Assembly: GCF_021272185.1 (NCBI RefSeq) | Contig: NZ_JAJSEC010000005.1 | Location: 62,001 to 126,000, forward strand | DNA: 64,000 nucleotides | Reading direction: 5' to 3' | DNA from: Roseivivax sp. GX 12232 | GTDB lineage: Bacteria; Pseudomonadota; Alphaproteobacteria; Rhodobacterales; Rhodobacteraceae | Shown here: positions 28,597 to 50,693 of the stretch, piece after piece | Layout of the letters: each line of letters opens with the position of its first letter | Numbering within the stretch: the stretch's first letter is position 1 | Program-made: the position numbers and the translations under genes | Notes under the pieces: generated by a model | The model's input: the letters and a program-made list of their open reading frames with translations, nothing else | Databases searched by the model: none | Told to the model about the DNA's origin: nothing

Positions 28597-28629
28597 CGGG
28601 GGGTGTCCCTTCGGCCAGGAGGCGGGGGG

Positions 28630-29835: not shown

Positions 29836-30000
29836 GGGGCGGTTCTCCTCTGGGGCCTCGGGCTGGATCGGTGGCCCGTGTTTACGGCGGTCATCGGCCC
29901 GGATGTAAAGCCCCAAAACGGCGTCAATTGCCCGCACGGGCTTTCCAAAAGGCGGCAGGGCTGCTTGTTTCGGAGCCATTGCACCCCGAGGAGACCCCCA

Positions 30001-33645: not shown

Positions 33646-36600
33646 ATGGCTCGCACGAACAGCCCCTTCGACACGGTGAAACCCGACGCCGATTACGCCC
33701 GCCCGCGGCTGAAGTCGGGCGTGCGCCGCGCCGCCGATGCGCCACCCCGTGGCCTTGCGCGTGGCGCGCGGGAGCCCGCGCTGGCGCTGCGCAACCCCGA
33801 GACCGGGCGCAGCATCCGGCTGAGCGGCCCCGAGGCGGCGCTGCTCGAACAGGCCGACGGCAGCCGCGACCTCGCCGCGCTGCACGCCTGCCAGCCCGAG
33901 GAGGGCGCGCTCGACCCCGAGGGGGTCATGGCCTTCTTCCGGCGGCTGAGCATCATGGGCTTCCTGGCCTCCGAGGCCGAGCGCGAGAGCCCCGAGCCAC
34001 CCGCGCGGCCGCTCCGCGAGCGCGGCGCCGCGCTGCGCGGTCGGGCGCCGCGAGCTGGTGCGGGCGCGCGGGCCGCGCGGACCGGGTCGGGCGGGACGAC
34101 CTCTGGGGCCGGGGCTGCCGAGGCCGGCGGCTCTGGTCCGTCCGAAGCGGCTGGCACCGGGAGCCGTCCGGCGCGACTTGAGACCGCCAAGGCCAAGGCG
34201 CAGAAGACCATGGAGGCGCGCCGCCGCCACCAGGCGCAGAAGCAGGCGGAGGAAGAGGCGGCTTCGGGGGCCAAGCCTGCGGAGGACGATCAGCGGGCGG
34301 AGGTGCCGAGCGCGGAGCGCGGGACGTCTGGGGAGACGGCCCCGGTGACAGATGCGGCGTCTGAGGCGAAGGAACCCGCGCAGGCGAAAAAGGGGTCTGA
34401 GGGCGCGGTTAAAGCGGCAAAGACCGGCGATGGAAAGACGGCGCAGAACGCTGGCGTGACGTCGCTGGATGAGGCTCCGCGCCCGACACCGGACGAGACA
34501 AGCGCCGCCTCCGAGACCAGTGACTCCACCCCGGCCAAACCGCCGCGCGGGCGCGGGGGAGCGCGGTTGCGCGCGGTGCCGACCTCGCCGCGGCAGGAGA
34601 AGACCGAGGGGACGGGACGTGAGGCAGCGGCGCAGCAGGCATCTGCCGAGACAATGCGATCGGCGTCGCCAGTTGCACCCGTGGCCGGAACGGAAGAGTC
34701 CGAAGCCCCGGCCGAACGACCCCAAGGATCGGGCCGCAATCGGACGAGCGGCGCGGCGAAAAACACGGGCGGCCCGTCGCGCGGCGCGGGCAGTGCCCGA
34801 GGCGCTGGCGCGCGCGGAACCGGCATCGACGGACCGCGAGCCTCTGGCGTTGGCCCACGCCAGACCATCATCGACGGTTCGAAGGCCACCGGCGCCGAGG
34901 CGCGTGGCACAGACGGCCCGAAAGCGACCGGCACGGCCCAAGAGGCTCCCGCGCTTGATCCGCTTGCGACAGTGACCGCCACGCTGCGACCGGCGAGCGC
35001 TGCCGAGGCGGCGGAAGACATCGAGGCGGATGTCGACGCGCTCACCGCGGAGCTGGCCAATGACTTCGGCATGGATTTTGTCGGGCGGCCCGGCGAAGGC
35101 GCCGGCGGAGAGCCCGCCGGGAGCCGGATGGGTGGCGAGGGGCAGCGGCTCCGCGCGCTCCTGGCGGCGCGGCAGGGCCAGGGCGGCATGGGCGGCGGCT
35201 TTGGCGGCGGCATGGGCGCTGGTCTCGGCGGCATGGGTGCGGGCATGGGCGGCGGCTTCGGCGGCGGCATGGGTGCGCGCGGCGGGCTTGGCGCGGGCAT
35301 GGGCGGCATGGGCGGCGGGCTCGGTGCCATGGGCGGCCTCGGGGCCGGCATGGGCGCGGGCATGGGCGGCGGCTTCGGCGGCATGGGCGGCATGGCCGCC
35401 CAGCAGCCGGGCCCCGAGGAAGGCCCCGCGCGGCTGCCGCTCTTCAACCCGCAGGCGCTTCTGAAACTGCTCTACATCGCCTTCTACCCTGCCAAGTTCC
35501 TGTTCTGGGCCCTGGTGCCGCTGGTGCTGATCGCCGGCATGACGATCTTCCAGAACTGGGAGCCGCTGATCGCCGACATCTACGCCGCCCTCGGGCAGGT
35601 CTCGCGGCTCTGGGTGCTGATCGGCGCGGCGGGCATCGTGAACCTGGTCTCGCGGCTCGCCCAGGGGGTGGCCATCGTCGCCCATGGCGGGCGGGTCTCG
35701 CGGCTGGGGGTGACGCTGATGCTCGGCATCCTGCCGCGCTTCTACGTCGACACCAGCGCGGTGCGGATGCTCGACCGGCGCGGCCAACTCTGGGCCCATG
35801 GCGCGCCGCTCCTGGCGCGGCTCGCGACCTTCGGCTTCGGCATGCTCTTCTGGGCGGTGACCCGTGACAGCGGCACCTGGTTCGCCGACATGAGCCTGAT
35901 CGCCGCCAAGATCGGCCTGATCGTCTTCGTGCTCTCGGCCTTGCCGCTGATCCCCGCCGAGGGCCAGCGCTGGATGGCGGTCTATTTCAACGACCCGCGG
36001 CTGATGCCGAAGACGCTGGCCGCGCTGCGCCATGTCTTCTTCCGCCGCCCGCTGCCGCCCTTCGTCGGGCGCGCCGACCTCGGCCCGCTGATCTTCTTCG
36101 GGCTGGCCACGGTGATCACCTCGGTCGCGGGGCTGACGGCGCTGGCGATCTATGCCGCCATCGCGCTCGAGCGCGAGCTCGGCGGCATGGGGGTGTCGAT
36201 CTTCTTCGGCCTGGTCCTGGCCTTCGTGATCTGGCTCCTGGCGGTCAAGGCGACGCTCGGGCGGCGGATGGCGCAGATGAGCCCGCAGATGGCGGCCATG
36301 GCCGCCGAGACCGGCCCGCGGCCGCATCCCCTGGAAGCGACGACCGGGGCCCAGGCCTCGGGCGCGGCCAAGGTGGTCTGGGCGCTGATCGGCGCGGGCC
36401 TCCTGGCGGTGGCCTTCCTGCCCTATACCTACGAGGCCGGCGGCCAGGTCGAGATCCTGCCCGCCTCGCGCGCCAAGGCGATTGCCCGGACCGAGGGCGA
36501 GGTGATCGAGCTCTTCGTGACCAAGGGCGAGCTGGTGGCGCCCGGCCAGCCGCTGGCGCAGCTCTCGAACTGGGAACAGCTCAGCCAGCGCGACGTGACC

Positions 36601-37380
36601 GCGACCGAACTGGCCGCCGCCGAGGCGAAGCTGCAGCGCCTGCGCGCCGGGGCCAAGCCCGAGGAGGTCCGCGTGGCCGAGACCCGGCTCGACAGCGCCC
36701 GGGCGGCGCTGGCCTTCTCGGAGGCGGAGCTGGCGCGGTCCGAGGACCTGGCGGCGAAAGGCACGATCAGCGGCAAGGACCTCGAGAAGGCCCGCGCGGC
36801 GCATCAGAACGACCTGAGCGCGCTGGCCTCGGCCGAGGCGAACCTGGCGCTCGTCGAAAGCGGCGCCACCGCCGAGGAGCTGGCGATTGCCGAGGCCGAC
36901 GTGCAGCGGCTGCGCATCCAGCTGGCCTTCCACGAGGCCGAGGTCACCCGCACCCGGGTCGAGGCCCCGATGGCGGGCCGGGTGATCACCTCGGACCTGG
37001 AGCTGCAGATCGGCAGCTTCCTGCGGGTCGGCGACCCTCTGTTGGAGATCGAGCGGACCGAGCGGATCTCGGCGGCGATCGACGTGCCGGAGTTCGACAT
37101 CACCCTGATCGCCCCCGGCGACGCGGTGCGGATGAAGGTGCGCGGCTACCAGGAAGACGAGATCGAGGGCCGGGTCGCCGCCATCGCGCCGACCGCCGAG
37201 GACAAGGGCTACGGCCGGGTGGTGCGCGTCGACGCGGTCTTCGAGAACCCCGACGACTTCCTGCGCTCGGGCACCACGGGATACGCCAAGATCGAGGGCA
37301 CCGAGATGCGCGTCTGGGAGGCCTACCTGCGCAGCATCCAGCGGTTCTTCCAGATCGAGTTCTGGTCCTGGATCCCGTGA
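33646..37380 (+). CDS. PqqD-like / degenerate M50 / HlyD adaptor fusion protein
   Basis: A 1,244-residue multidomain membrane protein. Residues 45-115 resemble PqqD/RRE peptide-binding domains (LRNPETGRSIRLSGPEAALL, LEQADGSRDLAALHA). Residues 130-510 are charged and low-complexity. Residues 514-585 are Gly/Met-rich. Residues 605-920 hold about six membrane segments matching M50-peptidase adaptors (HGGRVSRLGVTLMLGILPRF, YVD; LPLIPAEGQRWM), but the HExxH zinc motif is absent. Residues 925-1230 are an HlyD periplasmic adaptor with a coiled-coil hairpin (985-1105). The layout is that of peptide/RiPP export proteins. The start is ATG after GGAAG. No partner ABC or TolC gene is in the window. Confidence 0.75.
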   Translation: MARTNSPFDTVKPDADYARPRLKSGVRRAADAPPRGLARGAREPALALRNPETGRSIRLSGPEAALLEQADGSRDLAALHACQPEEGALDPEGVMAFFRRLSIMGFLASEAERESPEPPARPLRERGAALRGRAPRAGAGARAARTGSGGTTSGAGAAEAGGSGPSEAAGTGSRPARLETAKAKAQKTMEARRRHQAQKQAEEEAASGAKPAEDDQRAEVPSAERGTSGETAPVTDAASEAKEPAQAKKGSEGAVKAAKTGDGKTAQNAGVTSLDEAPRPTPDETSAASETSDSTPAKPPRGRGGARLRAVPTSPRQEKTEGTGREAAAQQASAETMRSASPVAPVAGTEESEAPAERPQGSGRNRTSGAAKNTGGPSRGAGSARGAGARGTGIDGPRASGVGPRQTIIDGSKATGAEARGTDGPKATGTAQEAPALDPLATVTATLRPASAAEAAEDIEADVDALTAELANDFGMDFVGRPGEGAGGEPAGSRMGGEGQRLRALLAARQGQGGMGGGFGGGMGAGLGGMGAGMGGGFGGGMGARGGLGAGMGGMGGGLGAMGGLGAGMGAGMGGGFGGMGGMAAQQPGPEEGPARLPLFNPQALLKLLYIAFYPAKFLFWALVPLVLIAGMTIFQNWEPLIADIYAALGQVSRLWVLIGAAGIVNLVSRLAQGVAIVAHGGRVSRLGVTLMLGILPRFYVDTSAVRMLDRRGQLWAHGAPLLARLATFGFGMLFWAVTRDSGTWFADMSLIAAKIGLIVFVLSALPLIPAEGQRWMAVYFNDPRLMPKTLAALRHVFFRRPLPPFVGRADLGPLIFFGLATVITSVAGLTALAIYAAIALERELGGMGVSIFFGLVLAFVIWLLAVKATLGRRMAQMSPQMAAMAAETGPRPHPLEATTGAQASGAAKVVWALIGAGLLAVAFLPYTYEAGGQVEILPASRAKAIARTEGEVIELFVTKGELVAPGQPLAQLSNWEQLSQRDVTATELAAAEAKLQRLRAGAKPEEVRVAETRLDSARAALAFSEAELARSEDLAAKGTISGKDLEKARAAHQNDLSALASAEANLALVESGATAEELAIAEADVQRLRIQLAFHEAEVTRTRVEAPMAGRVITSDLELQIGSFLRVGDPLLEIERTERISAAIDVPEFDITLIAPGDAVRMKVRGYQEDEIEGRVAAIAPTAEDKGYGRVVRVDAVFENPDDFLRSGTTGYAKIEGTEMRVWEAYLRSIQRFFQIEFWSWIP

Positions 37381-37755: not shown

Positions 37756-38049
37756 TCAGACCGCCTGCAGCTCCTCGTGCAGGAAGGCGGCCACGTCCTT
37801 CACCGCCACGTCGTCCACATAGGCGCCGTCCTTGATGAAGAGCTTCTCGAAGGGCAGCCCCTTGCGGTCGAGCTTCTGCTCCAGCGCCACGCAAAGCTGC
37901 ACCACGTCGATCGACTCGAACTCCAGGTCCTCGATCAGCGTGGTCTCGGGCTGGATGCCGCCCTCGATCTCGAGGCCCCAGTCCTCGACGGTGGTTTCAA
38001 GAACCGATGTGACGGTGCTCTCCAGCGCCTTCTGCGACGTGTCGGTCAT
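37756..38049 (-). CDS. free-standing acyl carrier protein
   Basis: A 97-residue acidic ACP. The phosphopantetheine attachment site is Ser46 in DLEFESIDVVQL; ESI replaces the DSL of housekeeping AcpP, as in specialised carrier proteins. TTLIEDLEFES and VKDVAAFLHEEL are the usual helix II and helix IV regions. AGGGA lies seven bases before the ATG; a TTG two codons upstream is less likely. It is the last gene of the 45.5-37.8 kb operon. The fused PPTase of the megasynthase at 50.7-55.7 kb is a likely activator. Confidence 0.88.
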   Translation of the reverse strand: MTDTSQKALESTVTSVLETTVEDWGLEIEGGIQPETTLIEDLEFESIDVVQLCVALEQKLDRKGLPFEKLFIKDGAYVDDVAVKDVAAFLHEELQAV

Positions 38050-38117
38050 GTGCAAATCCCTTGTCTGTCAATCTCCGGTCCCTGGGACGGGGCCGGTTCC
38101 GCTTCCCCAACGGCTCT

Positions 38118-39014
38118 TCAGCCGGCCTTCTTCGCCGTGACCTCAAGCCAATTGCGCGGAACTTCGGAGATCTCCAGGTTGGCGAAGGCGCGCGCAACAC
38201 CGGCCTGCATGCACTCGCTTGCGATGTCGACAGGGTATCCACTCATCAATACCTCCGCGAGTCCACCATAGCCGCCGACAAGCTCCAGCCCGCGCTGCGA
38301 GATGGCAACAGGTGTCTGCCGCGACATGGTCACCGTGAGCCCATGCGCCTCGACCGCCTCGGCCCAGCCGGCTTCAGAGACCCATTCGGTCTGCTGGAAG
38401 GCGCGCTTCACGGTGCCGCGCTTGCGGGGCACCGGCGGCTCGCCGCGCGTCTTGCGCTCGGCATTGAGCTCGTTCATCGCCAGCACCGCCTCTTTCATCA
38501 TCTCGGTGAAGACCATCTCGGTGCCCTCGACGAAGGTGCCGGCGTAGAAAACCGAGTTGAAGACGAACTGCCCGCCGGGGCGCAGCACCCGGGCGACCTC
38601 GGCCAGGAAGGCCGGGCGGTCGGGCATCATGTGGATCGCGTTGCCGATCACCACGAGGTCGATCTCGCCATCGGCGAAGGGCAGCTCCATGGCGCTGTCG
38701 ACGCGGAGGTGCACCCCGCCCTGCCCGGCCTCGGCGGCGGCGCGCCATTCCTCGAGGCTCTCGTGGAAGCGGGCGCCGTCCTCTTCGAGGCCGCGGCGCG
38801 ACAGCTCGATCTGCACCGGGTCGAGGTCGATGCCGCAGACCGCCAGCCCGGGCTTCCGCTCGAGCAGCATCCGCGACAGCAGCCCGGTGCCGCAGGCCAG
38901 GTCGGCGACCCGCGAGACCGCGCCGAGGTCCACCTCGGAGACAAGCTGACGGTTCACCGAGACGTAATGATTGTCCTGCGCGTAGGACTCGTAGGTCGTA
39001 TCCACTTTCGTCAT
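38118..39014 (-). CDS. class I SAM-dependent methyltransferase
   Basis: A 298-residue methyltransferase. Motif I is VADLACGTGLLSRML (about 36-50), the acidic loop end is in CGIDLDPVQ, and motif IV is in LVVIGNAIHMMPDRP. A C-terminal part beyond residue 190 is specific and does not match a well-known family. GAGGTGG lies before the ATG. It is 14 bases after the esterase gene and 68 before the ACP gene. O- or C-methylation of an ACP-bound or released product is inferred from context. Confidence 0.82.
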   Translation of the reverse strand: MTKVDTTYESYAQDNHYVSVNRQLVSEVDLGAVSRVADLACGTGLLSRMLLERKPGLAVCGIDLDPVQIELSRRGLEEDGARFHESLEEWRAAAEAGQGGVHLRVDSAMELPFADGEIDLVVIGNAIHMMPDRPAFLAEVARVLRPGGQFVFNSVFYAGTFVEGTEMVFTEMMKEAVLAMNELNAERKTRGEPPVPRKRGTVKRAFQQTEWVSEAGWAEAVEAHGLTVTMSRQTPVAISQRGLELVGGYGGLAEVLMSGYPVDIASECMQAGVARAFANLEISEVPRNWLEVTAKKAG

Positions 39015-39028
39015 CAAATCCACCTCGT

Positions 39029-39925
39029 TCAGATTGAAGCCTTCCCCGTCGCCGCGAGCCTGTCGCGGTCGACATACCACATCACCGTGCGTGCGATCAG
39101 ATCCTGCAGCGTTCCAGTGCGGAAATGCCGGGGGTCGCCGTCGAGCTGCCGGTGCCCCGCCCCTTCCAGCACCACGAGCCAGAGATCGGCGCCCGCCGCC
39201 CCGCCGTCCCAGAAGCTGATCCGCGCGTCGTGCCGTCCGACCCGGGCGCGGCTGCGCCGGGGCGGGGCCGTTATCCGGTTGCGGCGCTTCCAGAAGTCCA
39301 CCGTCGCCTCGACGCCCAGGAGCCGGCCCGCGACCGAGAAACCGGCGATGTCGGGCACCTCGCCGCCCTCCCAGGGGATCAGCGGGTCATCCGTGGCCTG
39401 GATCAGCATCATCGGCACCGGCGGGCCGGGCGGCGCGCTCTGCGCCAGGGCCTCGGGCAGGGCCGAGACCACGGCGACGCCGATCGCCGGCGGCTCGGAG
39501 AGCGCGCAGCAGAGCCTTTGGCAAAACATCCCGCCGTTCGACACGCCGATCAGCGCGAGCGGCACCTCGGCGCGGTTCAGCGCCTCTTTCTGGCGGGCGT
39601 GGATCACCTCGATGAAGCCGCGGTCGCCGGGCCAGCGGTCCTCGAGCGGGGGGCGGCCGTCGGACCAATGCCGCAGCGCCTGCGGGAAGGCGATGTCGTG
39701 ACCGTAGCTCTGCAGCGCCTCGGCCAGGCCCGAGCGCAGCACGAAGCCCTGGGCGGTGCCGTTGCCGCCGTGCAGCGCCAGCACCGTGGAACAGGTCGGC
39801 GCGGTCTCGACCGGCATCTCGGGCAGCAGGAGCGCCCGGGCGCCCCAGCGGGTCTTGATGGAGACGCTGCGCGCGGCCCGGACCGGAGCGCCGGGGCTGC
39901 CGCCCCTTTTGCCGCGCGCCGCCAC
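39029..39925 (-). CDS. PHB-depolymerase-like esterase, cytoplasmic
   Basis: A 298-residue alpha/beta hydrolase of the LpqC/PHB-depolymerase family. ALHGGNGTAQGF forms the oxyanion region, the nucleophile is in GVSNGGMFCQRL, the acid in ATDDPLIPWEGGE, and the His in LEGAGHRQ. There is no signal peptide. It starts with GTG four bases after the preceding stop. It is a paralogue of the secreted esterase at 49502-50500 (shared VSNGGMF.QRL, DD.L.PW.GGE, VLEGAGH). It may release or trim an ester in the pathway. Confidence 0.78.
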   Translation of the reverse strand: MAARGKRGGSPGAPVRAARSVSIKTRWGARALLLPEMPVETAPTCSTVLALHGGNGTAQGFVLRSGLAEALQSYGHDIAFPQALRHWSDGRPPLEDRWPGDRGFIEVIHARQKEALNRAEVPLALIGVSNGGMFCQRLCCALSEPPAIGVAVVSALPEALAQSAPPGPPVPMMLIQATDDPLIPWEGGEVPDIAGFSVAGRLLGVEATVDFWKRRNRITAPPRRSRARVGRHDARISFWDGGAAGADLWLVVLEGAGHRQLDGDPRHFRTGTLQDLIARTVMWYVDRDRLAATGKASI

Positions 39926-39929
39926 GGCC

Positions 39930-41450
39930 CTATCCCGCCCGGTCCACGGCAGGCCCCTGCCCGCGCCAGACCTCGAGCCCGCCCAGCGGGTTGTCCTCGT
40001 AGCGCCAGCCCTCGGGCGTGCCGTCCGGCACCGCCACGCGCGGGCCGAAGACATTGGCGGTGCCGACGAAGAGCCCCTCGGGCGTGGAGACCAGGTTCCG
40101 CACCCCCCAGTTGTAGGGATTGCCGAGCCCGCGCCGGGTGACCGGCAGCCAGTTCTCGCCGTCGGCGCTGCGCCACATGTCGGCGCCGCCGTCGTTCTCG
40201 ATGATGCGCTCGGGGCTGACATGGGTCAGCAGCTCGCGCACCAGCCGCGGCGCCCCGTCGAGCTTGGCCCAGCGCAGGGTCACCGCCCAGTCGTAGGTGC
40301 CGCAGTAGAGCCAGCCGTCATGTTCGGCGAGCGACCAGATGTAGCCGTTGAAGAAATGCCCGAACCCCGCCTTCAGCCCGGAGAGCGGCGCGCGCCCGTC
40401 GCCGTCGCGGTCGCCGACCACCACCTCCCAGCTGTCGTCGGGATGGATGCGCAGGATCTCGGCCGCGGCGGGGCCGATGCCGTTGACCCGGTCGAGCCCG
40501 CCGCCCTGGATGCCGGTGCCGACGTAGAGCGCCCCCTTGAAGGCGGTCATGCTGGCCACCGCCTGGTTCAGCGGCCCGCGCCCGGCGCCATGGCTCATCA
40601 CCTTGCGCCAGCGGTAGGGGAAGGGCCCGGCCTTGGGGTCGGCGGGGCTGCCGTCGGTCGCCCAGACCTGCAGCCCCTCGAGGTTCAGCGTCCCGGCGTA
40701 GAGCGTGTCGCCCGCCACCGCGAGGCTGAAGATCCCCATGTTGCCCGCGTCCTCGAAGCCCGGCGGGTTCACCGGCTGCCAGTCGCCGGCCTCGGGCGTG
40801 GCGGAGGCGAAGATCAGCGGCAGGCCGGCCGAGTTCTGCTGCCCGCCGTCGCTGCCGCGCCGCGCGGTCGGGGCGAAATGCATCCGCCCCTTGAAGGTGG
40901 TCAGGCTGCGGGTCACCGAGAAGGGCGGATCGGTGATGCCGTAAGGCGTGATCGGCTCGAACCCCTGCCCGTCTGTCGAGCGCAGGATCAGCCCGCCCGG
41001 CGCCCGCCCCGGCGCCCAGGCCGAAACGTAGAGCGCCGGTTCGGTATCGCCCGGACCCTGGTAGACCTCCATCGAGCGGTAGCCGATCTCGCGCGGGACG
41101 GGACGGCCGTCGAGCCCCTCGACCATGGGCGCGCGGAAGACCATCTCCCATTGGTCGGTGAGCGGATCATAGGCCCAGATCTGCGAGCGCCGGTCGAGCT
41201 CGTAGAGCCCGTCGAGCGTCTCGGGGCATTCCACCGGCCAGACCTTCAAGGGCAGCGCCTTGAAGGCCGACTGGAAGCGCAGCATGCAGAGGTTCGACCG
41301 GGTGGTGCCGAGGTAGAGCCGCCCGCGGAACCAGGCCATGGAATGGGCATAGTTGTTGTGCCCGTCGCCCAGCCCGCCGACCCCGACGCGGGTGAAGTCC
41401 CGGGCGTTGAGCCCGCGGTTCGGGAAGGGATCGGGCAGCGGCATGGTCAT
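39930..41450 (-). CDS. repeat protein, predicted beta-propeller, paralogue 1
   Basis: A 506-residue protein without a signal peptide. It has repeated short blade-like units: AHSMAWFRGRLYLGTTRSN, LTTFKGRMHFAPT, LAVAGDTLYAGTLNLEG, MTAFKGALYVGTGIQ, LAEHDGWLYCGTYDW, LVSTPEGLFVGTANV. Each joins a 'hydrophobic-x-G-x-LY-x-GT' strand to a trailing strand, as in Kelch/YVTN-type propellers. It is related to 47068-48480. The function is unknown; the position in the operon, five bases after an SDR, suggests an enzyme-like or binding role on the same product. Confidence 0.65.
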   Translation of the reverse strand: MTMPLPDPFPNRGLNARDFTRVGVGGLGDGHNNYAHSMAWFRGRLYLGTTRSNLCMLRFQSAFKALPLKVWPVECPETLDGLYELDRRSQIWAYDPLTDQWEMVFRAPMVEGLDGRPVPREIGYRSMEVYQGPGDTEPALYVSAWAPGRAPGGLILRSTDGQGFEPITPYGITDPPFSVTRSLTTFKGRMHFAPTARRGSDGGQQNSAGLPLIFASATPEAGDWQPVNPPGFEDAGNMGIFSLAVAGDTLYAGTLNLEGLQVWATDGSPADPKAGPFPYRWRKVMSHGAGRGPLNQAVASMTAFKGALYVGTGIQGGGLDRVNGIGPAAAEILRIHPDDSWEVVVGDRDGDGRAPLSGLKAGFGHFFNGYIWSLAEHDGWLYCGTYDWAVTLRWAKLDGAPRLVRELLTHVSPERIIENDGGADMWRSADGENWLPVTRRGLGNPYNWGVRNLVSTPEGLFVGTANVFGPRVAVPDGTPEGWRYEDNPLGGLEVWRGQGPAVDRAG

Positions 41451-41455
41451 CGCGC

Positions 41456-42202
41456 TCAGGCCCCCTTGCCGCGTTTTCGGCGCTGCGGCACCGGGGCCAC
41501 GACGGAGTTGAACAGGAACATCTCGCGCGGAAGCCGCACCAGGTAGTCGACGTATTCGGCGACGTGATCGGCGGACAGCATGGCGCGCGGCTTGAGCGCG
41601 GCGGTGCCCGACTGCGACCAGAGCCCGGTGTCCACCGCGTCGGGCAGCACAGTCTGCACCCGAACGCCCTCGCGCTGGACCTCTTCGGCGAGGCTTTCCG
41701 ACAGGCCCAGGATGCCGAACTTCGAGCTCGCGTAGGGCCCGTCGAAGGCCCGGCCCTGCTTGCCCGAGACCGAGGAGATATTGACGATGTCGCCTTCCTT
41801 CTGGGCCAGCATGGCCGCCAGGACCGCGCGGTTCGACAGGAAGGTGCCGGTCAGGTTCACGTCGATGACGGTCTTCCATTCCTCGAAGCTGGTGTCGGCC
41901 ACGGATTTCAGCGTGCCGCCGACCCGCAGGATGCCCGCCGCGGCGACAAGGATGTCGATCCGGCCGGTGGGCTCGAGCGCCAGCTCGGCCATGCGCGCCA
42001 TGTCCGCCTCCGAGGTGATGTCGGCGGGGAAGACCCGCGCCGCCGCGCCGATCTCCGCGGCCACCGCGGCGAGCCCCTCGGCGTTGCGGTCGACCAGCAG
42101 GACCTGCGCGCCCCCCGCCGCGAGGCGGCGCGCCACGGCGGCGCCGATGCCGCCCGCGGCGCCGGTGACGATGGCGGATTTGCCGGTCAGGGGGATGCTC
42201 AT
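41456..42202 (-). CDS. SDR family oxidoreductase
   Basis: A 248-residue classical SDR. It has the nucleotide-binding TGAAGGIG (about 12-19), LVAAAG in place of NNAG, the catalytic Ser in NISSVSGK, and YASSKFG (Tyr/Lys). It is likely a ketone or alcohol oxidoreductase acting on an acyl chain. GAGG precedes the ATG. Its start overlaps the stop of the next-upstream SDR by ATGA. Confidence 0.85.
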   Translation of the reverse strand: MSIPLTGKSAIVTGAAGGIGAAVARRLAAGGAQVLLVDRNAEGLAAVAAEIGAAARVFPADITSEADMARMAELALEPTGRIDILVAAAGILRVGGTLKSVADTSFEEWKTVIDVNLTGTFLSNRAVLAAMLAQKEGDIVNISSVSGKQGRAFDGPYASSKFGILGLSESLAEEVQREGVRVQTVLPDAVDTGLWSQSGTAALKPRAMLSADHVAEYVDYLVRLPREMFLFNSVVAPVPQRRKRGKGA

Positions 42203-42969
42203 GCGGAACCTCGCGCTTTGTGCCGCTGACGGCCCCGGCGGGGCATCGGCAGAAGATGGGGATCGGGGCAGGCCATGCGGCGCCCAAGCTCGGTCAGATC
42301 GGCCAGCGCCCGGGCGAAGCCCTCGGGGGTCATGCGCCCGCCGAAGGGCCCGTCGAGCAGCGTATCGGCGATCAGCGGCGTGTCGACGGAGCCCGGGAAG
42401 ACCGTGCGGACGCGGATGCCCTCGGGGCCGAGCGCCTCGGCCAGCTCGCGGCCCAGGGCGGCGAGGGCGAATTTCGTCGCGCAATAGGCCGGGGCGAGCG
42501 GCGTGCCGCGCAGCCCCTGCGGCGTGGTGGAAGAGCCGATGTGCAGGATGTCGCCCTCGCCCGCCTTGCGCATCAGCGGCAGCACCGCCTGGTCGGCCAG
42601 GAAGACCCCGTGCAGGTTCACGTCGATGGCGCGCTGCCAGTCGGCGAGCGGCAGGTCGCGGGTGCGGGGCGGCGCGCCCGCCTCGGGGTCGCGGCCGACC
42701 ACCGCCGAACAGACCAGCAGGTCGGCCCGCCCGATCTCGGTCAGCCGCGCGGCGAGCTGCCCCATCTGGTCCGCGTCGCCCACGTCGAGGCCCAGCGCCT
42801 CGTGGCCCGCGCCCGGCGCGATCTCTTCCAGCTCGGACAGAAGTTCCGCCCGCCGCGCCTCGGCGCGGCCGAGCCCGATGATCCGATGCCCGCGCCGGGC
42901 GTATTCCAGCGCCAGGGCCCGGCCGATGCCGCTGGTGGCCCCGGTCAGCACGGCGACCGGCGCGCTCAT
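42199..42969 (-). CDS. SDR family oxidoreductase
   Basis: A 256-residue classical SDR with TGATSGIGRALAL, LLVCSAVVG in the NNAG position, HIGSSTTPQ (Ser) and YCATKFALAAL (Tyr/Lys). The C-terminus is basic (PMPRRGRQRHKARG). It lies between, and overlaps, the other SDR and the alpha/beta hydrolase (ATGA at both ends), so the three are made together. The substrate is unknown. Confidence 0.85.
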   Translation of the reverse strand: MSAPVAVLTGATSGIGRALALEYARRGHRIIGLGRAEARRAELLSELEEIAPGAGHEALGLDVGDADQMGQLAARLTEIGRADLLVCSAVVGRDPEAGAPPRTRDLPLADWQRAIDVNLHGVFLADQAVLPLMRKAGEGDILHIGSSTTPQGLRGTPLAPAYCATKFALAALGRELAEALGPEGIRVRTVFPGSVDTPLIADTLLDGPFGGRMTPEGFARALADLTELGRRMACPDPHLLPMPRRGRQRHKARGSA

Positions 42970-43946
42970 CGCCAGCCCCTCCGGCGGATGGTGGCGCGCA
43001 GCGGCCGCTGGCGGCGCTTGGCAGCGGCGCGCAGGCGCAGCGCGGCGGGCTGGTCGCTGCCGCCGATGAAGGCCTGCAGCGCCATGGCGAAGACTCGCGG
43101 CTTCACGATCGGGAAGAAATGCCCCGCGCCGGGCACCACCACCCGGCGCGCGCCGGGCAGATGATCGAGCAGGTATTCCGAGGTCGGCAGGCAGTGCGAC
43201 TTGGCCCCATAGGCCAGAAGCACCGGCATCGGCAGTTCGGGCAGCGCGGGCACGTCGATCTGGGTCTCGTCCTGCATCTCGTCGCGGGCGGTGGTGGTCT
43301 CCAGGAGGGCCTGCCAGCGCTGCGCGCCGCGCGCGCCCATCTGCCGCGAACGCAAGTTGATGCCGCGCCGCCGCGCCGGCCCCGCCCGCGCGGGCAACTC
43401 GCCCGTGGCCAGCGCCGAGCCGCCGCGCTGGCCCAGTTCGGCCAGGAGCGTGAAGTCGATCTCGGCCTCCTCGGGCGGGAAGCGGGTCACCCCCTGCTCG
43501 GCGAGCTGCGCGCGCCACTCGGGCCAATGCGGCCAGTCGCAAAGCCGCATCGGCGGCTGGATCGCGCGCAGCTGGGTGTCGGCCACGGTCAGGCTGGCGA
43601 AGCGCTCGGGATGGCGCTGCGCGAGGACCAGCGCCACCCGGGCGCCATGGCTGTGGCCCACCAGATGCGCCTGGCCGATGCCCGCCGCATCCATGACCGC
43701 CAGCATGTCGGCGGCCATGCGGTCGAGCCGGTAGCCCTCGGGCGGCATGGAGCTGGCCCCGTGGCCGCGCAGGTCCGGCAAGAGCAGCGCCCGCTCCTGG
43801 CCAAGGTAGCGCACCGCGCCGAGGAACCAGAAGGACAGGTTCGCCCCAAGCCCGTGGATCATCACCAGGGGCACCGGACCGGCCTCCGGGTCCGCACCGA
43901 GAAGCTGGTAGTTCAGCTTGACGTCGGGAAGCGTCAGGGCCGTCAT
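42966..43946 (-). CDS. alpha/beta hydrolase, possible thioesterase
   Basis: A 326-residue hydrolase. The oxyanion HGLGAN is at about 31-36, the nucleophile Ser99 in GHSHGAR, and the His in GAGHFFP. The usual acid position after the sixth strand reads YGAKSHCLP and lacks the common Asp. The C-terminal 40 residues are Arg-rich. The gene lies 12 bases after the phosphodiesterase and overlaps the SDR. Product release from the ACP or megasynthase is a reasonable but untested idea. Confidence 0.78.
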   Translation of the reverse strand: MTALTLPDVKLNYQLLGADPEAGPVPLVMIHGLGANLSFWFLGAVRYLGQERALLLPDLRGHGASSMPPEGYRLDRMAADMLAVMDAAGIGQAHLVGHSHGARVALVLAQRHPERFASLTVADTQLRAIQPPMRLCDWPHWPEWRAQLAEQGVTRFPPEEAEIDFTLLAELGQRGGSALATGELPARAGPARRRGINLRSRQMGARGAQRWQALLETTTARDEMQDETQIDVPALPELPMPVLLAYGAKSHCLPTSEYLLDHLPGARRVVVPGAGHFFPIVKPRVFAMALQAFIGGSDQPAALRLRAAAKRRQRPLRATIRRRGWR

Positions 43947-43958
43947 CGGGCGCGTGCC

Positions 43959-45542
43959 TCAATCCATGTAGCCGAGCTTCTTCATCTGCCGGAGCAGGAC
44001 CTCGCGCTCCTCGGCGCTGGGTTCCGGGCGCTCCTCGGCGGGTTGGGAGGCGGCACTCCGGGCCTGGCCCGCCTTGGTGGCGGTGATGCCCGGGACCAGG
44101 GCCTCCTGCGGCACCCGCCCCTCGAGGTTCTTCGGCACCGGCAGCCCCAGTAGCGTCAGCATCAGGGGCGCGATGTCCAGAAGATTCAGCGGATCGACCT
44201 GTTCGTCCTGCCGGAAGGCGGGGCCCGCGCCGATGAAGATGCCCTCGGGACGGTGGGTGCCGTCGGCCAGGGCGCGCGGCTTGACCACGGCGTCCGAGGA
44301 GATGATCGAGACGAAGCCGCCGTCGCGCAGCTTCAGGGTGATGTCCGGGCAGGGCTCGATGAAGGCGCGGCCGCGCATCTTGTTCATGTCGAGCCCGGCC
44401 AGCACCTTCTCGCCCTGGTCGTCGGTCCAGGCCAGAAGCTCCTCGCGCAGCTTCAGCGCAAACTCCATGTAGCGGTCGGGCGAAATGCCCGAGCCGTCGC
44501 CCGGGTCGGGCTTGATGAAAATCGCGTTCGAGGACGGCGTCGGGCAGAAGGCCACCGTGCGCTTCCAGTCGATCATCGCCTGGTGGTCCTTGAGCTTGTC
44601 GGCGGCGAGCTGCGCCCGCCCGTCGCCCGCGCCGTCCTCGCGCCAGTGCAGGTAGCCGCGATCGGCGAGCCACTGGTTGATGTAGACGATCTCGGTCGTG
44701 GGCCCGAAGCCGTGGTCCGAGGTGATCAGCACGTTGGTCCCGGGGCCCGCGGCCTCGACCATGCGGCGGATGTTATCGTCCATCCGGGCGTAGAACTCGG
44801 TCACCAGTCGGGTGATCTTCTCGGTCTGTTCTCCCGGTTCGCCGGCGTGGCACTCGGGGTCGAGGTAGCGCCAGAAGAGGTGCTGGATCTTGTCCGGCCC
44901 GTCCAGCACGATGGCCGCGAGGTCGGTCGGGTCCTCTTCCAGCAACCGGCACATGACGTCGGTCCAGGCCTTGTCGCGGACGTTCTGCAGCTCGATCCAT
45001 TCCTCGTGCTCGTCGGCCTCGAGGCCCTGGACCACCTTCTTCTCCTCGCCGATGTCCATGCCGAGGTCGCGGTAGTCGAAATCCTCCGAGGCGCGCAGCC
45101 TGTCGAACAGCGCCGGTGGGTGAATGCCGCCGCGCAGGTGCTTCCAGGGCACGAAGCCCGAGGCCACGTGGCCGTCGAGCTCGGGCGCGGGGTAGAAACC
45201 GAAGAAGTTCAGCACCGTCGCGCGCTTGCCGCCGCGGTTGGCGATGGAAAACACCGTTTCCGCGTGATTGTCGCGGCGGTCGTTGATCTTCAGGAAAACG
45301 CCGCCATCTTCGAGGAAGGCCGGGCGCAGGAAGTCGTAGATGCCATGCGCCTCGGGGCTGACCCCGGTGGTCATCGAGGTCCAGGCCGGCGGCGTCAGCG
45401 GGTTCCGCGTCGACATCAGCTGGGCGATGGTGCCGGATTTGATCAACCCGGTCAGGAAGGGCAGATGGCCTTGCCGGGACAGAGGAGAGAGCAGGCTGAA
45501 AGTGGCCCCGTCGAGGCCGATCATCAAAACACGGTCAGACAA
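43959..45542 (-). CDS. alkaline-phosphatase-superfamily phosphodiesterase/phosphatase
   Basis: A 527-residue metal-dependent enzyme of the type I phosphodiesterase/nucleotide pyrophosphatase family. The first metal Asp11 is in MIGLDGATF, the Thr55 nucleophile in TPPAWTSMTTG, further ligands in DGPDKIQHLFW and ITSDHGFGPT. It starts with TTG at 45542: GGAG is nine bases upstream, and starting at the next ATG (45524) would cut the first core strand. There is no signal peptide. It is the first gene of the eight-gene operon. The family also contains phospholipid- and sulfate-ester enzymes, so the exact bond is open. Confidence 0.82.
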   Translation of the reverse strand: MSDRVLMIGLDGATFSLLSPLSRQGHLPFLTGLIKSGTIAQLMSTRNPLTPPAWTSMTTGVSPEAHGIYDFLRPAFLEDGGVFLKINDRRDNHAETVFSIANRGGKRATVLNFFGFYPAPELDGHVASGFVPWKHLRGGIHPPALFDRLRASEDFDYRDLGMDIGEEKKVVQGLEADEHEEWIELQNVRDKAWTDVMCRLLEEDPTDLAAIVLDGPDKIQHLFWRYLDPECHAGEPGEQTEKITRLVTEFYARMDDNIRRMVEAAGPGTNVLITSDHGFGPTTEIVYINQWLADRGYLHWREDGAGDGRAQLAADKLKDHQAMIDWKRTVAFCPTPSSNAIFIKPDPGDGSGISPDRYMEFALKLREELLAWTDDQGEKVLAGLDMNKMRGRAFIEPCPDITLKLRDGGFVSIISSDAVVKPRALADGTHRPEGIFIGAGPAFRQDEQVDPLNLLDIAPLMLTLLGLPVPKNLEGRVPQEALVPGITATKAGQARSAASQPAEERPEPSAEEREVLLRQMKKLGYMD

Positions 45543-46175: not shown

Positions 46176-47075
46176 ATGCCCGAGCCCATTTTCCTGATCG
46201 CGCCCGGGCGGTCCTATACCTCGCTCATCGGCGGCATGATCGGCCAGCACCCCCAGGTCTACGGCATGCCCGAGATCAGCGTCTCGCATGCGGATACCAT
46301 CGGCGGGGTGCTGCAGACGTTGAAGGGGCCGTTGGAATACGGTCTGGCGGGACTACTCAGGCTCCTCGCGCAGCTGCACGACGGCGAACAGACCGAGGAG
46401 ACGGTCAACGCCGCCCGGCAGTGGCTCATGCAGCGCGCGCATTGGAGCATCGCCGAGCTTTTCGCCCATATCCAGGACCAGGTCGGCGACAAGGCGCTGT
46501 TCGATAAGAGCCCTCGAACCGTTACCAATTACGACAACATGGCACGGCTTTTGCAGGTCTTTCCGAATGCCTCCTTCCTGCATCTGACGCGCCACCCGAT
46601 CACCACCTGCAAGTCCGCGATGGCGCTGCGCAACAGCTTCGCGGATGCCAACAAGCCCAAGCGCCGGGCGCGCATCAACCTCGATCCCGAGAACACCTGG
46701 CGGCGCGCGCAGGACAACATCACGCGCTTCACCGCCACGCTTCCCCCGGGCCAGTGCCTGCGGGTCAAGGCCGAGATGATCCTCAGCGACCCGCCGAAAT
46801 ACCTCGCGCAAATCTGCGAATGGCTGGGGCTGTCCACCGAGCCCGATGCGCTCGAGGCGATGATGCACCCGGAAAACTCACCCTATGCCTCGATCGGGCC
46901 ACCTTCGGCGCTTTACGGCAACGACCCGAATTTCCTGAAAAACCCGGTGCTCGACATGTCGCGGCTGCAGAATATCGCCGAGCCCTCGCTCGACAGCCAC
47001 CTGCCCTGGCGCGACGATGGTGGCGCGCTGGCGCCGGAGACAATCAGGCTCGCGCGCCAGTTTGGATATGGATAA
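46176..47075 (+). CDS. sulfotransferase family protein, paralogue 1
   Basis: A 299-residue PAPS-dependent sulfotransferase. The 5'-phosphosulfate loop is APGRSYTSLIGG (9-20), and the 3'-phosphate region is in FLHLTRHPITTCKSAMAL. EICEWLGLS-type sequence near the C-terminus (QICEWLGLSTEP) is common in the family. It would transfer sulfate to a hydroxyl or amine. GGAG precedes the ATG. It overlaps the following propeller gene. A paralogue lies at 48642. Third-position GC is less extreme here than in the neighbouring megasynthase genes. Confidence 0.82.
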   Translation: MPEPIFLIAPGRSYTSLIGGMIGQHPQVYGMPEISVSHADTIGGVLQTLKGPLEYGLAGLLRLLAQLHDGEQTEETVNAARQWLMQRAHWSIAELFAHIQDQVGDKALFDKSPRTVTNYDNMARLLQVFPNASFLHLTRHPITTCKSAMALRNSFADANKPKRRARINLDPENTWRRAQDNITRFTATLPPGQCLRVKAEMILSDPPKYLAQICEWLGLSTEPDALEAMMHPENSPYASIGPPSALYGNDPNFLKNPVLDMSRLQNIAEPSLDSHLPWRDDGGALAPETIRLARQFGYG

Positions 47076-48480
47076 GCACATGGACGGCGATACAGACCTG
47101 CAATTCGTATCCGTCGCGCAAGGCGGGCTAGGCCACGAGGGCAGCACGCTGGCCCACGCCATGGCCTGGTTTCAGGATCACCTCTACCTCGGCACCACCG
47201 CTCCGCGCGGCGCCAGCCCGACAGACGCGGGCCGCATCCTGCGGTTCGATCCGAAGTCCGAGAGCTGGGAGACCGCCCACAGCGCCCCCGTGATCGAGAC
47301 CAACGAGGAGATCCTGGCCCGGCTCGACGCGCAGAACGAAACTCTTGGGGGCAAGGATCTGGCCGGGCTAACCGGCGTCACCCATCCCACCGGATTGGCG
47401 CGAGAATACGGCATTCGCGCGCTGCAGATCTTCAAGGGCAAGAGCGACCCGCATCCCTGTCTCTACGCGGGCACCATGTCGCTTTTCGGCGGTGGCATCC
47501 TGCGGTCCGAAGACGGGGTGAGCTTTGAGCCCGTGTTGGGGACCGGACGGCACGACGACAGCATCCTGTCCTTCCGCGGTCTGGTCGAGTTCAAGGGGCG
47601 GCTCTACACCGCGCCCGCCGGAACCGCCACGCGCGACAAGGCCGACCCGAACTTCGCCCCGGAAGCCATGGTCTATGTCTCCGACGACCCCGCCAAGGGC
47701 GCCGAAAGCTGGGCGCCGGTCTGCGAACCTGCCTTTGGCGATCCGGTCAACCGCTCGGTCTTCGCGCTGGGTGTCGCGCATGGCTACCTCTACGCGGGCA
47801 CCGCCTCCTGGACGCGCGGCTTCCAGCTGTGGCGCACCGACGGCAAAGGCAAAGGGCTGCACAAATGGGAGCGGGTGCTGACGGACGGCGCCTATCGGTT
47901 CAACCACAACTTCTCGGTTGCCACGCTCTGCGCCTTCGACGGCGATATGTACGTGGGCTCGGGCATCTCCGGGCTGGGCTACGACAAGGCGCATGACGTG
48001 GGCCCCGCCACTGCCGAGCTGATCCGCGTGAAGCCGGACGGGTCCTGGGATCTCTTGGTCGGGGACCTGCGCTGCACGCCCGACGGGCTCAAGGTGCCGC
48101 TCAGCGCCATGGGGCCGGGCTTCGACGATCCCTACAACTCGGTCATGTGGTCAATGACGGTGCACGAAGACGCGCTCTATGTCGGCACCCAGCAATGGGA
48201 GCCCTTCGACACGGCGTTGCACGGTGACGGATCGCCGCTGACGGGGGGGTACCAGCTCTGGAGGTCGCGCAACGGAGGCGACTGGGAAAAGGTGATCGAC
48301 GCCGCGCTGGGGCGGGTCTCGGCGACCGGCCTGAGATCGATGCAATCGACGCCGGCGGGCCTGTTCCTGGGCACCAGCGTGCACCCGAAGCTCCTGCGCA
48401 TCCTGAGCCGGAAATCCGGGGCGGTAACCCCCGCGCTGAATGCCGACAAGAACGGGTTCGAGGTGTTGCTGGGCAGCTAG
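47068..48480 (+). CDS. repeat protein, predicted beta-propeller, paralogue 2
   Basis: About 470 residues, related to 39930-41450: both share AHAMAWF..HLYLGTT near the N-terminus, then REYGIRALQIFKGK / REIGYRSMEVYQG, FKGRLYTAP, GVAHGYLYAGTASW, GDMYVGSGISG, GPATAELIRVKPDGSW (GPAAAEILRIHPDDSW in paralogue 1), and STPAGLFLGT. It has no signal peptide. Starts at 47068 (overlapping the sulfotransferase stop) and 47080 are both possible. The role is unknown; coupling to a sulfotransferase is notable. Confidence 0.65.
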   Translation: MDKHMDGDTDLQFVSVAQGGLGHEGSTLAHAMAWFQDHLYLGTTAPRGASPTDAGRILRFDPKSESWETAHSAPVIETNEEILARLDAQNETLGGKDLAGLTGVTHPTGLAREYGIRALQIFKGKSDPHPCLYAGTMSLFGGGILRSEDGVSFEPVLGTGRHDDSILSFRGLVEFKGRLYTAPAGTATRDKADPNFAPEAMVYVSDDPAKGAESWAPVCEPAFGDPVNRSVFALGVAHGYLYAGTASWTRGFQLWRTDGKGKGLHKWERVLTDGAYRFNHNFSVATLCAFDGDMYVGSGISGLGYDKAHDVGPATAELIRVKPDGSWDLLVGDLRCTPDGLKVPLSAMGPGFDDPYNSVMWSMTVHEDALYVGTQQWEPFDTALHGDGSPLTGGYQLWRSRNGGDWEKVIDAALGRVSATGLRSMQSTPAGLFLGTSVHPKLLRILSRKSGAVTPALNADKNGFEVLLGS

Positions 48481-48641: not shown

Positions 48642-49505
48642 TCACGAATACCCATACTCCCGCGCCTTCTTCGGTAGCGCGTAGCGCGGGCCGTCCTCGG
48701 CGCGGGTCAGCTCACCCAGGGGCGCGATGGGCTCGGCGAGGCTCGCGCCGTAGGGGCCGGGGCCCGCGAAGGGCGACAGCTCGGGCTGCGCCATGGCAGC
48801 GAGGTCGGCGGGCTCGGCGGCCAGGTCCAGAACCTCGGCCAGGCGCGCCAGCTCGGTCCCGGGGGACGCGATCAGATCCTCGAGCCGCACCGGAGCGACC
48901 CGGCTGCCGGGCATCGCGCCCGCCAGCGCGTCGATGGCCTCCTCGGCCTTGAGCCAGAGCCCGATGGGATCGGGCTGGCGCGGCTGGCCCGCGGCCCCGC
49001 CCGAGGCGCCCAGCAAGGTCGCCGCCGCGCCGCCGGCCTGGGCCATGACCACCCGTGCCTGGGCGCCGGGGTGACGGCGCAGGGTCACGATGTCGGCGCC
49101 CGGGTAAAGCGCCGCGATCCGATCCCGCGCGATCTCGCTGAAGAGCCCGGCGCCCAGCGGCAGGACCAGCCGGCGCGGCGCGAGCCGCTCGGCGAACCAA
49201 TCGGCCAGCCGCGCGGTCGGCCAATGCATCCGCTCCAGGAGCCAGCGCCGCGCCATCTCGACCGACTGCAGGCTCTGTTCGCCCGACAGAAGCAGCGCCA
49301 GCGCCCGCAGGGTGCCGCTCAGCTGCACCATGCGCGGGCCGGTCATCTCGAAGACCAAGTCGTAGACGGTCTTCTCGGTCTCGAGGTTCAGGACCGGCAG
49401 GTCGAAGGCTTGGCTGTTGCGCCCGAGCGCCGCCGCCAGCGTGCCGTGGCCGCTGCCCGGAGAGGCCGCGACCAGGATCGGCCGCGGCCGGCTCTCGCCG
49501 CTCAT
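48642..49505 (-). CDS. sulfotransferase-like protein, paralogue 2
   Basis: A 287-residue protein homologous to 46176-47075: compare LLSGEQSLQSVEMARRWLLE / LHDGEQTEETVNAARQWLMQ and RMHWPTARLADWF / RAHWSIAELFAHI. The 5'-phosphosulfate loop reads AASPGSGHGTLAAAL, with the usual Arg/Lys replaced. The 3' region TLRRHPGAQARVVMAQ keeps the Arg. Reduced or altered activity is possible. Its ATG overlaps the esterase stop (ATGA). Confidence 0.7.
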   Translation of the reverse strand: MSGESRPRPILVAASPGSGHGTLAAALGRNSQAFDLPVLNLETEKTVYDLVFEMTGPRMVQLSGTLRALALLLSGEQSLQSVEMARRWLLERMHWPTARLADWFAERLAPRRLVLPLGAGLFSEIARDRIAALYPGADIVTLRRHPGAQARVVMAQAGGAAATLLGASGGAAGQPRQPDPIGLWLKAEEAIDALAGAMPGSRVAPVRLEDLIASPGTELARLAEVLDLAAEPADLAAMAQPELSPFAGPGPYGASLAEPIAPLGELTRAEDGPRYALPKKAREYGYS

Positions 49506-50500
49506 AGACCGTAGCGCGCGAAGAAGGAGAGCATGGCGTCGGTCGCCGCCACCTCGCGGCTGATGTTGCCCGCGATCCGGCCACCGCCGCGGGTGCCGCC
49601 GGGCCAATTGTGGCCTGCCCCTTCGAGCACCCAGAACCGCAGCGCCGCGCCGCCCGCGCAATTGTAGGTGATGAGTTGCGCCTTGGTGCCGTCATTGGCG
49701 TCATCGCGCACCGAACCGCCCGAGCCGCCGCCGCAATTGTTGACGCGGATCCAGAACTCCTGGGTCTCGATGGCCGAAAGCACCCGCCCGCCGGTGCCGA
49801 TCCCGAGGATGGCGATATTGGCGATCTCGCCGCCCTGCCAGGGCATCAGCCGGTCGTCGGTGGCCTGGAAGAAGATCATCGGCTGGGCCTGTCCCGGTGC
49901 GCAGCGCGAGGCAAGATCGGCGGGCATATTGGCGACCACGACGCCGTAGCCCCGGAAGAGATCCGGCGCCTCGCAGGCGAGCCGCTGGGTGAACATGCCG
50001 CCGTTCGAGACGCCCGCGGCGAACATCCGCCCGGTGTCGAGCCCGAAGCGTGCACGCAGGTCGGCGGCCACCGCGCGGGTGTAGCCCACGTCGTCGAAGC
50101 TCGACCGGGTGGTGGCGCGGCCGTCGTTCCACTGCTGGCCCGGGGAGTTGGGATAGACCGCCGCGAAGCCGTAGCTGCCGGCGAAGCGCGAAAGCAGCGC
50201 CGACTCCTGGGCGTTCCGCCCGTCGCCCTCGCCGCCGTGGAAGACCATGACCACGCCCCGGCCCGCGGAGACGGTCGCAGGGTCGATGTAATAGGACCGC
50301 TGGCTCCCCTGGTGCTGGATGGTGATCAGCTCGAGCCCGCTGGCGCTGGGACTGCCGCCCGCCTGCCGCTCGGCCCGGCGCTCGGCGATACGGTCGCGGA
50401 TCGCCTCGCGGATCGGCCCGTCCTGCGCGGTGGCGGAGGTGGCCAGAAGCGCCATGAGCAGCGCGCCCGAGGCAAGAGTTCTGCTAACCAAGGAAATCAT
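49502..50500 (-). CDS. secreted PHB-depolymerase-like esterase
   Basis: A 332-residue exported hydrolase. Signal peptide at residues 1-25 (LASGALLMALLATSATAQ), then a charged helix, then the Esterase-PHB domain: VMVFHGGEGDGRN, the nucleophile in GVSNGGMFTQRLAC, the acid in ATDDRLMPWQGGE, and the His in LEGAGHNWPGG. The ATG at 50500 gives the clean signal peptide; the longer frame from 50581 does not. It is a paralogue of 39029-39925 but sent to the periplasm, so one reaction may occur on both sides of the membrane. Confidence 0.82.
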   Translation of the reverse strand: MISLVSRTLASGALLMALLATSATAQDGPIREAIRDRIAERRAERQAGGSPSASGLELITIQHQGSQRSYYIDPATVSAGRGVVMVFHGGEGDGRNAQESALLSRFAGSYGFAAVYPNSPGQQWNDGRATTRSSFDDVGYTRAVAADLRARFGLDTGRMFAAGVSNGGMFTQRLACEAPDLFRGYGVVVANMPADLASRCAPGQAQPMIFFQATDDRLMPWQGGEIANIAILGIGTGGRVLSAIETQEFWIRVNNCGGGSGGSVRDDANDGTKAQLITYNCAGGAALRFWVLEGAGHNWPGGTRGGGRIAGNISREVAATDAMLSFFARYGL

Positions 50501-50693
50501 CGTCAGTCCCTTCTTCAAACTGGGCTGCAGTGGAAGAGAAGCGCCACGGGACGCGCCCGGGCGGTGGAAAAAGAGTAGCAAGGCCCCATGAGGCTGTCCA
50601 ATGCGGCGGGGCCCGGGGGAGCCGGGTGGCGCAGGCTTGCCGGTGCGGGCGGGGGCGCCGCCGTGCCGCCCGGCCCGCGCCGTCGCTCAGAGC

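Follow-up and report, generated by a model that had tools for sequence, protein, structure and literature searches.

In the type 1 secretion transporter HlyB, a dead C39-like peptidase domain serves substrate binding, and DevBCA-HgdD exports heterocyst glycolipids, both as described in PMC8277102. Here we compare with these and other systems a fusion protein of Roseivivax sp. GX 12232 (Rhodobacteraceae), encoded in a stretch of 64,000 nucleotides (the window; contig NZ_JAJSEC010000005.1, positions 62,001 to 126,000). The gene (33646..37380, +; window coordinates throughout) is an open reading frame (ORF) of 1244 aa. Based on the open frame, Pfam and relatives, its product joins four parts: a domain resembling PqqD and the recognition elements (RREs) of ribosomally synthesized and post-translationally modified peptide (RiPP) pathways, a linker, an M50-type membrane domain without its zinc motifs (the dead form), and a HlyD adaptor. 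Apart from the linker, this is the composition that an earlier note on this DNA had claimed. Because the fusion recurs beside genes for the synthesis of large fatty or polyketide molecules, it is probably an exporter of their product rather than a protease, and we put at roughly 0.6 the probability that it serves a PfaA-like polyketide/fatty-acid synthase cluster as a dedicated exporter, placed in inner membrane and periplasm, of what that cluster makes.

The membrane domain (35425..36279, +) was delimited by predicted structure and alignment. At the HExxH position, HELTH falls on SRLAQ in the alignment (residues 669-673; 35650..35664, +), inside the stretch of about residues 664-703 in which the earlier note had reported the motif to be absent. 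Where FDG, the second zinc motif, would stand, the window protein reads AEG when aligned with HExxH relatives (residues 771-773; 35956..35964, +); the third zinc ligand, the Asp of NP..xDG, belongs to this site, where many relatives keep DG though they lack HExxH. An active zinc protease was rejected, as both zinc motifs are gone. In a predicted model of residues 594-1244 (12-row alignment, mean predicted local distance difference test score (pLDDT) 80.6), the membrane part matched the site-2 protease (S2P) fold of RseP (7w6x; Z 10.1, root-mean-square deviation (rmsd) 5.0, 163 residues) and of mjS2P (3b4r; Z 9.7, rmsd 3.4, 135 residues), matches that came from a second structure aligner, the Foldseek list being filled by the HlyD part. 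Profile comparison of the membrane part with three HExxH proteins gave a probability of 99 (E 8e-18). Pfam found no M50 match in the window protein, the HlyD adaptor being the sole part that it recognised, while NCBIfam returned a sub-cutoff match to a daptide metalloprotease over residues 597-872 (29.9 bits, cut-off 300); neither scan matched the protein to a named pump family. Identity to the protein of Roseivivax halotolerans was similar in the M50 (66%) and HlyD (65%) domains and 33% in the loop, implying that the dead domain has been retained.

Loss of the motif is shared across a group of relatives. A genome-contig scan with the single protein found two relatives among 20 stretches, one from R. 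halotolerans, at 64% for its best segment, and one, at 27%, from a Leptolyngbyaceae metagenome-assembled genome. In both, the same kind of gene cluster adjoins the gene. With a three-row profile of the membrane domain, 18 of 394 genomes of the window's family matched at E<=1e-5, split into 12 strong matches (E<=2.8e-39, the window's included) and six weak ones (E>=1.9e-10). A 12-row profile matched 24 of 386 genomes of the cyanobacterial phylum (8 strong, E<=1.1e-35, and 16 weak) and 69 of 398 Pseudomonadota (4 strong, of which two were new and outside the window's class); in these surveys, a few candidates per genome from a first look were scored. The dead group thus comprises 23 genomes (12 of the family, R. 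halotolerans, eight cyanobacteria and two Pseudomonadota), picked by score to the profile of dead members, with tree and motif checked afterwards. HExxH was missing from all 23 proteins, the window's among them. Conversely, the motif was read in 34/34 weak-match loci examined, a set that leaves out the weak matches of 4 genomes of the cyanobacterial and 49 of the Pseudomonadota survey, and in 3/3 plasmid proteins. In a 42-row tree, which left off the dead proteins of the two Pseudomonadota (L085, L086), the 21 dead rows formed one side of a 100/100 branch, opposite 21 HExxH relatives, and the eight cyanobacterial rows grouped inside the dead side (99/98). One-off decay was rejected, given that open frames are conserved across the 23 genomes. 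M50 and HlyD occupy separate frames in two of these genomes (G348 and G665), and in a third (L043; G216:C289, 1-4570) the M50-HlyD frame continues from one that by eye resembles PBP1a, the contig being 4.6 kb long; this joined ORF is probably a misassembly of the short contig, and the genome is still counted among the 23.

The dead form is linked to the megasynthase cluster that adjoins it in the window. When fetched stretches of differing length were searched by tblastn with the cluster proteins of the window, the gene proved to lie on the same contig as polyketide synthase (PKS), AlkP-superfamily or 'propeller' genes in 20 of the 23 genomes. For 16 of these 20, by hand count, the sequence read includes a PKS itself, and PKS2 directly adjoins the gene in four (G403, G723, G701 and G665). 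The three genomes outside these 20 are G216 with its 4.6 kb contig, G357, where the gene lies at a contig edge and the cluster genes are on another contig, and G538, discussed below. Clustering the loci of 21 genomes placed the transporter family in 21, a propeller/hydrolase family in 19, PKS in 17 and AlkP in 16 (in part on a different contig of that genome). Separately, a hand count gave sulfotransferase matches in 14 of 21 locus sets. We also scored 'propeller' protein A as a co-occurrence marker in the same genomes as the dead protein. Among the 394 family genomes the marker was present in 14 and the dead form in 12, with both in 12 (Fisher 3.7e-21, kinship ignored); among the 386 cyanobacteria the counts were 8, 8 and 7 (Fisher 2.7e-13, kinship again ignored). 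As judged by this marker gene, co-occurrence with the megasynthase cluster, which the earlier note had suggested checking, was found in 12/12 and 7/8 carriers. By comparison, the marker was found in 0/6 family genomes holding weak matches only, and 0/6 HExxH-type control loci had any PKS, AlkP, propeller or sulfotransferase match. Together, the 20/23 linkage and the co-occurrence (12/12 and 7/8) lend strong genomic support to the earlier suggestion that the protein has been reused for another cargo, for which the lipid of the neighbouring cluster is a candidate.

The adaptor part (36376..37377, +), comprising an anchoring helix and a MacA/EmrA-like HlyD/periplasmic adaptor domain of barrel-sandwich and hairpin type, was identified by Pfam and predicted structure. 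It exceeds Pfam cut-offs (PF16576, 8.9e-19; PF13437, 4.5e-17), its predicted model matches MacA, EmrA and MexA (several with large rmsd), and it ends in a C-terminal motif strongly conserved among relatives (RFFQIEFWSWIP; 37342..37377, +). Its closest relatives are the separate HlyD proteins encoded as partners in HExxH operons (E 3e-22 to 8e-17), and comparison with the own tail of the PqqD-M50 proteins of those operons gave no match. The window protein therefore looks like two subunits made one.

These operons were met in a plasmid search by protein that returned 33 records, mostly HlyD-level matches; three of the four records opened held annotated HExxH operons (L001, L002 and L004), with genes for DUF3467, a HlyD protein and a PqqD-M50 protein with HExxH. 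A SecA-like translocase was added in L001 (scanned) and L002 (by similarity), and a giant protein gene adjoins the operon in L001 and L004 (annotated 'LEPR-XLL' in L004). Four genome loci with weak matches (L045-L048) carry HlyD, PqqD-M50 and SecA-like genes, with DUF3467 in three. The DUF3467/HlyD/PqqD-M50/SecA-like operon looks like a little-described protein secretion system; it was seen at L001:1-13634, L002:7209-13605, L003 and L045-L048, with DUF3467 unmatched in L003 and L048, and its neighbour in L001 is a gene of some 38 kb whose product is a giant Ig-like protein. The DUF3467, SecA-like and TolC genes of the HExxH operons were found in 0/39 dead-type stretches (766 kb), and a SecA-type engine at these loci was rejected on that absence. 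Literature searched for PqqD, HlyD and M50 in combination, also with SecA, returned no publication under those words, nor did 'type 12 secretion system' or 'T12SS'. Titles on LEPR-XLL and on M50/HlyD/PKS/sulfotransferase held nothing on the present system; HlyD and sulfotransferase are unmentioned in PMC3098273, PMC13291983 and PMC11804610, and M50 appears in neither PMC13291983 nor PMC11804610.

At the other end of the protein, support for an RRE-like domain (33685..33981, +; about residues 14-112) is good but not perfect. The AF2 model, built from a 10-row alignment (pLDDT 78), has a predicted beta3-alpha3 winged-helix fold whose top matches were lasso-peptide RRE domains, TigE and PqqD (Z 9.3 to 7.3: 6jx3 9.3, 5v1u 9.1, 8vpo 8.9, PqqD 5sxy 7.3), albeit with Foldseek E values of only about 0.01 and with some other protein kinds also scoring Z around 8. 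The N-terminus could be aligned in 19 of the 23 genomes; G313 and G348 have none in the M50 frame read, and those of G380 (contig end) and G216 (joined frame) were unreadable. By hhalign, the 19-row profile matched the equivalent region of three HExxH proteins (probability 96.8, E 2.6e-10), two of which carry a PqqD-family annotation, and against sequences of solved structures it ranked TbiB1 first (E 0.012), followed by TfuB1 (0.029), PqqC/D (0.3) and PqqD (0.48), among 16 weak matches in all that also included annexins. The PqqD-like domain of the earlier note therefore stands on fold and profile matches, though the window protein alone falls below Pfam detection: it has no PF05402 match, and at E<=1 that model reaches 6 of 19 family N-termini, the window's included (best 0.0022). 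It is a putative binder of cargo, carrier or leader peptide. A low-complexity linker (33982..35421, +), Ala/Pro-rich and then Gly/Met-rich, joins it to the membrane domain; its length varies among relatives, and judging from its sequence it is probably disordered.

We propose descent from a two-part M50/HlyD export apparatus such as those that accompany giant-protein genes, its PqqD-M50 part and partner HlyD having merged into one chain and the protease site having been lost. The intramembrane cavity may have been kept as a conduit or docking platform (compare HlyB with its dead C39-like domain). Tethered by the long linker, the cytoplasmic RRE-like domain would dock the cargo or its carrier (holo-acyl carrier protein (ACP), synthase or tailoring enzyme), the pseudoprotease domain would take the amphiphile out of the inner membrane, and the HlyD part would pass it to a TolC-type channel encoded elsewhere; in this genome, PF02321 matches of that type lie on contigs C6 and C33. 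More tentatively, and with considerable doubt, the protein could represent an exporter class in which the pseudoprotease itself is the membrane engine and the RRE has switched to recognition of a carrier protein or megasynthase, moving products without an ATP-binding cassette (ABC), resistance-nodulation-division (RND) or major facilitator superfamily (MFS) pump; equally doubtfully, those products would be polyketides or fatty acids and, in one genome, probably nonribosomal. If true, this would add a further way, beside ABC, RND and MFS pumps, of feeding a TolC-type conduit.

Several observations weigh against an exporter dedicated to the cluster product. The main weakness is that no engine was found at the loci, by an ABC motif scan only, RND and MFS not being searched by name; an engine may be encoded elsewhere. 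ABC-like ORFs occurred in 4 of 21 locus sets on the same scan; those of the window and R. halotolerans are an uptake ATPase, and the other two sets are from G357 and G665. Linkage does not prove cargo. Three genomes that lack the dead protein nevertheless hold cluster genes: in G165 these are propeller B and, at 50-60% identity to those of the window, PKS1 and PKS2; in G584, the propeller and PKS genes of weak similarity; and in G018, propeller B together with a sulfotransferase. Conversely, G538 has the dead protein and, in the 56 kb read, no propeller or PKS and only nonribosomal peptide synthetase (NRPS) genes. Among distant relatives, moreover, divergence is greater in M50 (27-32% identity) than in HlyD (32-43%). 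In G538 the dead M50-HlyD gene lies between NRPS genes (L079:12363-20000, L080:4990-9456), one of which ends in sulfotransferase and thioesterase domains.

The protein might instead export a RiPP or small protein with an unseen precursor, the RRE-like domain binding its leader and the PKS cluster forming a hybrid lipopeptide pathway. The best fold matches of the modelled N-terminal domain are indeed leader-binding domains, and HExxH relatives adjoin giant-protein genes or match daptide metalloprotease models. However, small ORFs (20-130 aa) shared between the adjacent stretches of the window and R. halotolerans were only pieces of the gene itself or of the ACP gene, or shadow frames, PqqD had no match at E<=1 in the window's own genome, and no radical SAM protein was found in the 17 neighbouring frames scanned, leaving this alternative unlikely. 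The earlier note was right that no precursor or radical SAM gene is seen nearby and wrong in adding that no ABC gene is, since an ABC uptake system lies at 25297-31080 (-). Its proposal of service to a distant RiPP locus is not supported, given the lack of both a genomic PqqD match and an adjacent conserved precursor-like ORF, and for the same reasons a nearby RiPP locus was rejected; no RiPP precursor with a modifying enzyme was seen nearby (other RiPP enzymes were not searched in the rest of the genome). A scaffold is likewise improbable, although the lack of an engine at the loci and the long linker with its RRE-like domain would suit a pseudoprotease that holds the megasynthase, and with it the tailoring enzymes, to the inner membrane while HlyD merely spans the periplasm: the HlyD region retains its adaptor fold, the C-terminal motif is strongly conserved, and TolC-type genes are present in the same genome.

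Membrane-family pseudoproteases can regulate active relatives (according to PMC3149277; an analogy only), and two ordinary M50 genes lie on contig C12 of the window's genome, HExxH having been read in one, so that an iRhom-like regulator or inhibitor acting on an active M50 protease of its own cell might be imagined. M50 genes occur in this genome and in 14/14 control genomes, yet few genomes have the dead form and its distribution follows that of the PKS cluster, making such a role very improbable. Least of all do we credit a decaying gene or a functionless chance neighbour: the site is lost and the linker poorly conserved, but conservation of the open frame across two phyla, in 23 genomes, together with the linkage, in the main refutes it. 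Export of the cluster product thus remains our preferred explanation.

With regard to the gene itself, the start at ATG 33646 is the one that aligns with the Roseivivax relative. A minus-strand ORF of 1136 aa lies opposite (33523-36933, -); as codon-position G+C of the plus frame from GTG 33556 is of coding type (0.73/0.57/0.90), we took this ORF for a shadow frame, probably reflecting the high-GC codon pattern. Upstream, the ABC uptake operon includes a binding protein (PF13458), appears by eye to be of the branched-chain amino-acid uptake type, and also stands upstream in R. halotolerans (L005).

Downstream lie an ACP gene (37756..38055, -; Pfam PP-binding just below cut-off, sub-cutoff ACP models), an S-adenosylmethionine (SAM) methyltransferase gene (38118..39014, -) and a gene for an esterase resembling polyhydroxyalkanoate depolymerase (39029..39865, -; below the model's cut-off). 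'Propeller' protein A follows (39930..41450, -), a label guessed by eye for a protein with no Pfam or NCBIfam match, which tracks the PKS cluster across phyla. Two short-chain dehydrogenases come next, one of uncertain start (41456..42229, -) and a second at 42199..42972 (-); a Roseivivax frame 79% identical to the former over 221 aa matches the latter as well. Then come an alpha/beta hydrolase (42966..43946, -) and an AlkP-superfamily phosphodiesterase (43959..45542, -; PF01663). On the plus strand are a sulfotransferase (46176..47075, +) and 'propeller' protein B (47080..48480, +), a paralogue of A with 39% identity, also labelled by eye and without a Pfam match. Beyond these lie a second sulfotransferase (48642..49505, -), an esterase-like hydrolase (49502..50503, -) and the two synthases, PKS2 with ketosynthase (KS), acyltransferase (AT), dehydratase (DH) and phosphopantetheinyl transferase domains (50694..55694, -) and PKS1 with KS, AT, ACP, ketoreductase and DH domains (55691..63952, -). 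The best NCBIfam match of PKS2, the synthase tested, was PfaA TIGR02813 (E 2.7e-146; 488.8 bits, under the cut-off of 1010.1). Elsewhere, tetratricopeptide repeat proteins recur near the dead transporter, as a family in 12 of the 21 genomes clustered (L032:12009-13562 and L082:11509-13134, both scanned, and L071:12684-13748, by eye).

If the exporter interpretation is right, loss of the protease site turned a peptide-processing apparatus into a carrier of lipids made by enzymes, which two phyla have retained together with one kind of gene cluster, providing an export step for an orphan synthase family. It would also make two questions testable, namely whether an RRE domain can recognise a non-peptide carrier and whether an S2P fold can move amphiphiles. 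For cluster finding, the RRE-like domain, the S2P fold without HExxH and the C-terminal FFQIExWxWIP-like motif together offer a mark.

Among known systems, the giant-protein operons (L001, L002 and L004) are similar in their order of RRE-like domain, M50 and adaptor-like tail, with the profile agreement given above (probability 99, E 8e-18), and their partner HlyD is homologous to the window's fused HlyD. They keep HExxH and FDG or FDS and have DUF3467, with a SecA-like ATPase in L001 and L002 and a giant gene in L001 and L004, whereas the window form is dead, fused and beside PKS genes. The daptide metalloprotease (NF041824) and YydH/LiaK (NF058609) models, going by their names, share the use of an M50-type membrane domain in peptide maturation; the window protein, at 29.9 bits, stays below the former's cut-off of 300 and does not match the latter, lacks HExxH and has no precursor in sight. 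HlyB type 1 secretion likewise has a peptidase domain that serves substrate binding without catalysis (PMC8277102), although of another peptidase fold and with its own ATPase, none having been found for the window protein in the ABC motif scan of loci. DevBCA-HgdD, by the same source, uses a HlyD-type adaptor in exporting a lipid through a TolC protein, as the window protein may do with its presumed cargo, and differs in being powered by the MacB-like DevCA, while the motif scan found no ABC partner here. Finally, the window's cluster resembles PfaA-type polyunsaturated fatty acid and secondary-lipid synthase clusters, PfaA being the best match of PKS2, but PKS2 scores below the PfaA cut-off and the cluster adds sulfotransferase, AlkP and propeller genes and the fusion protein itself.

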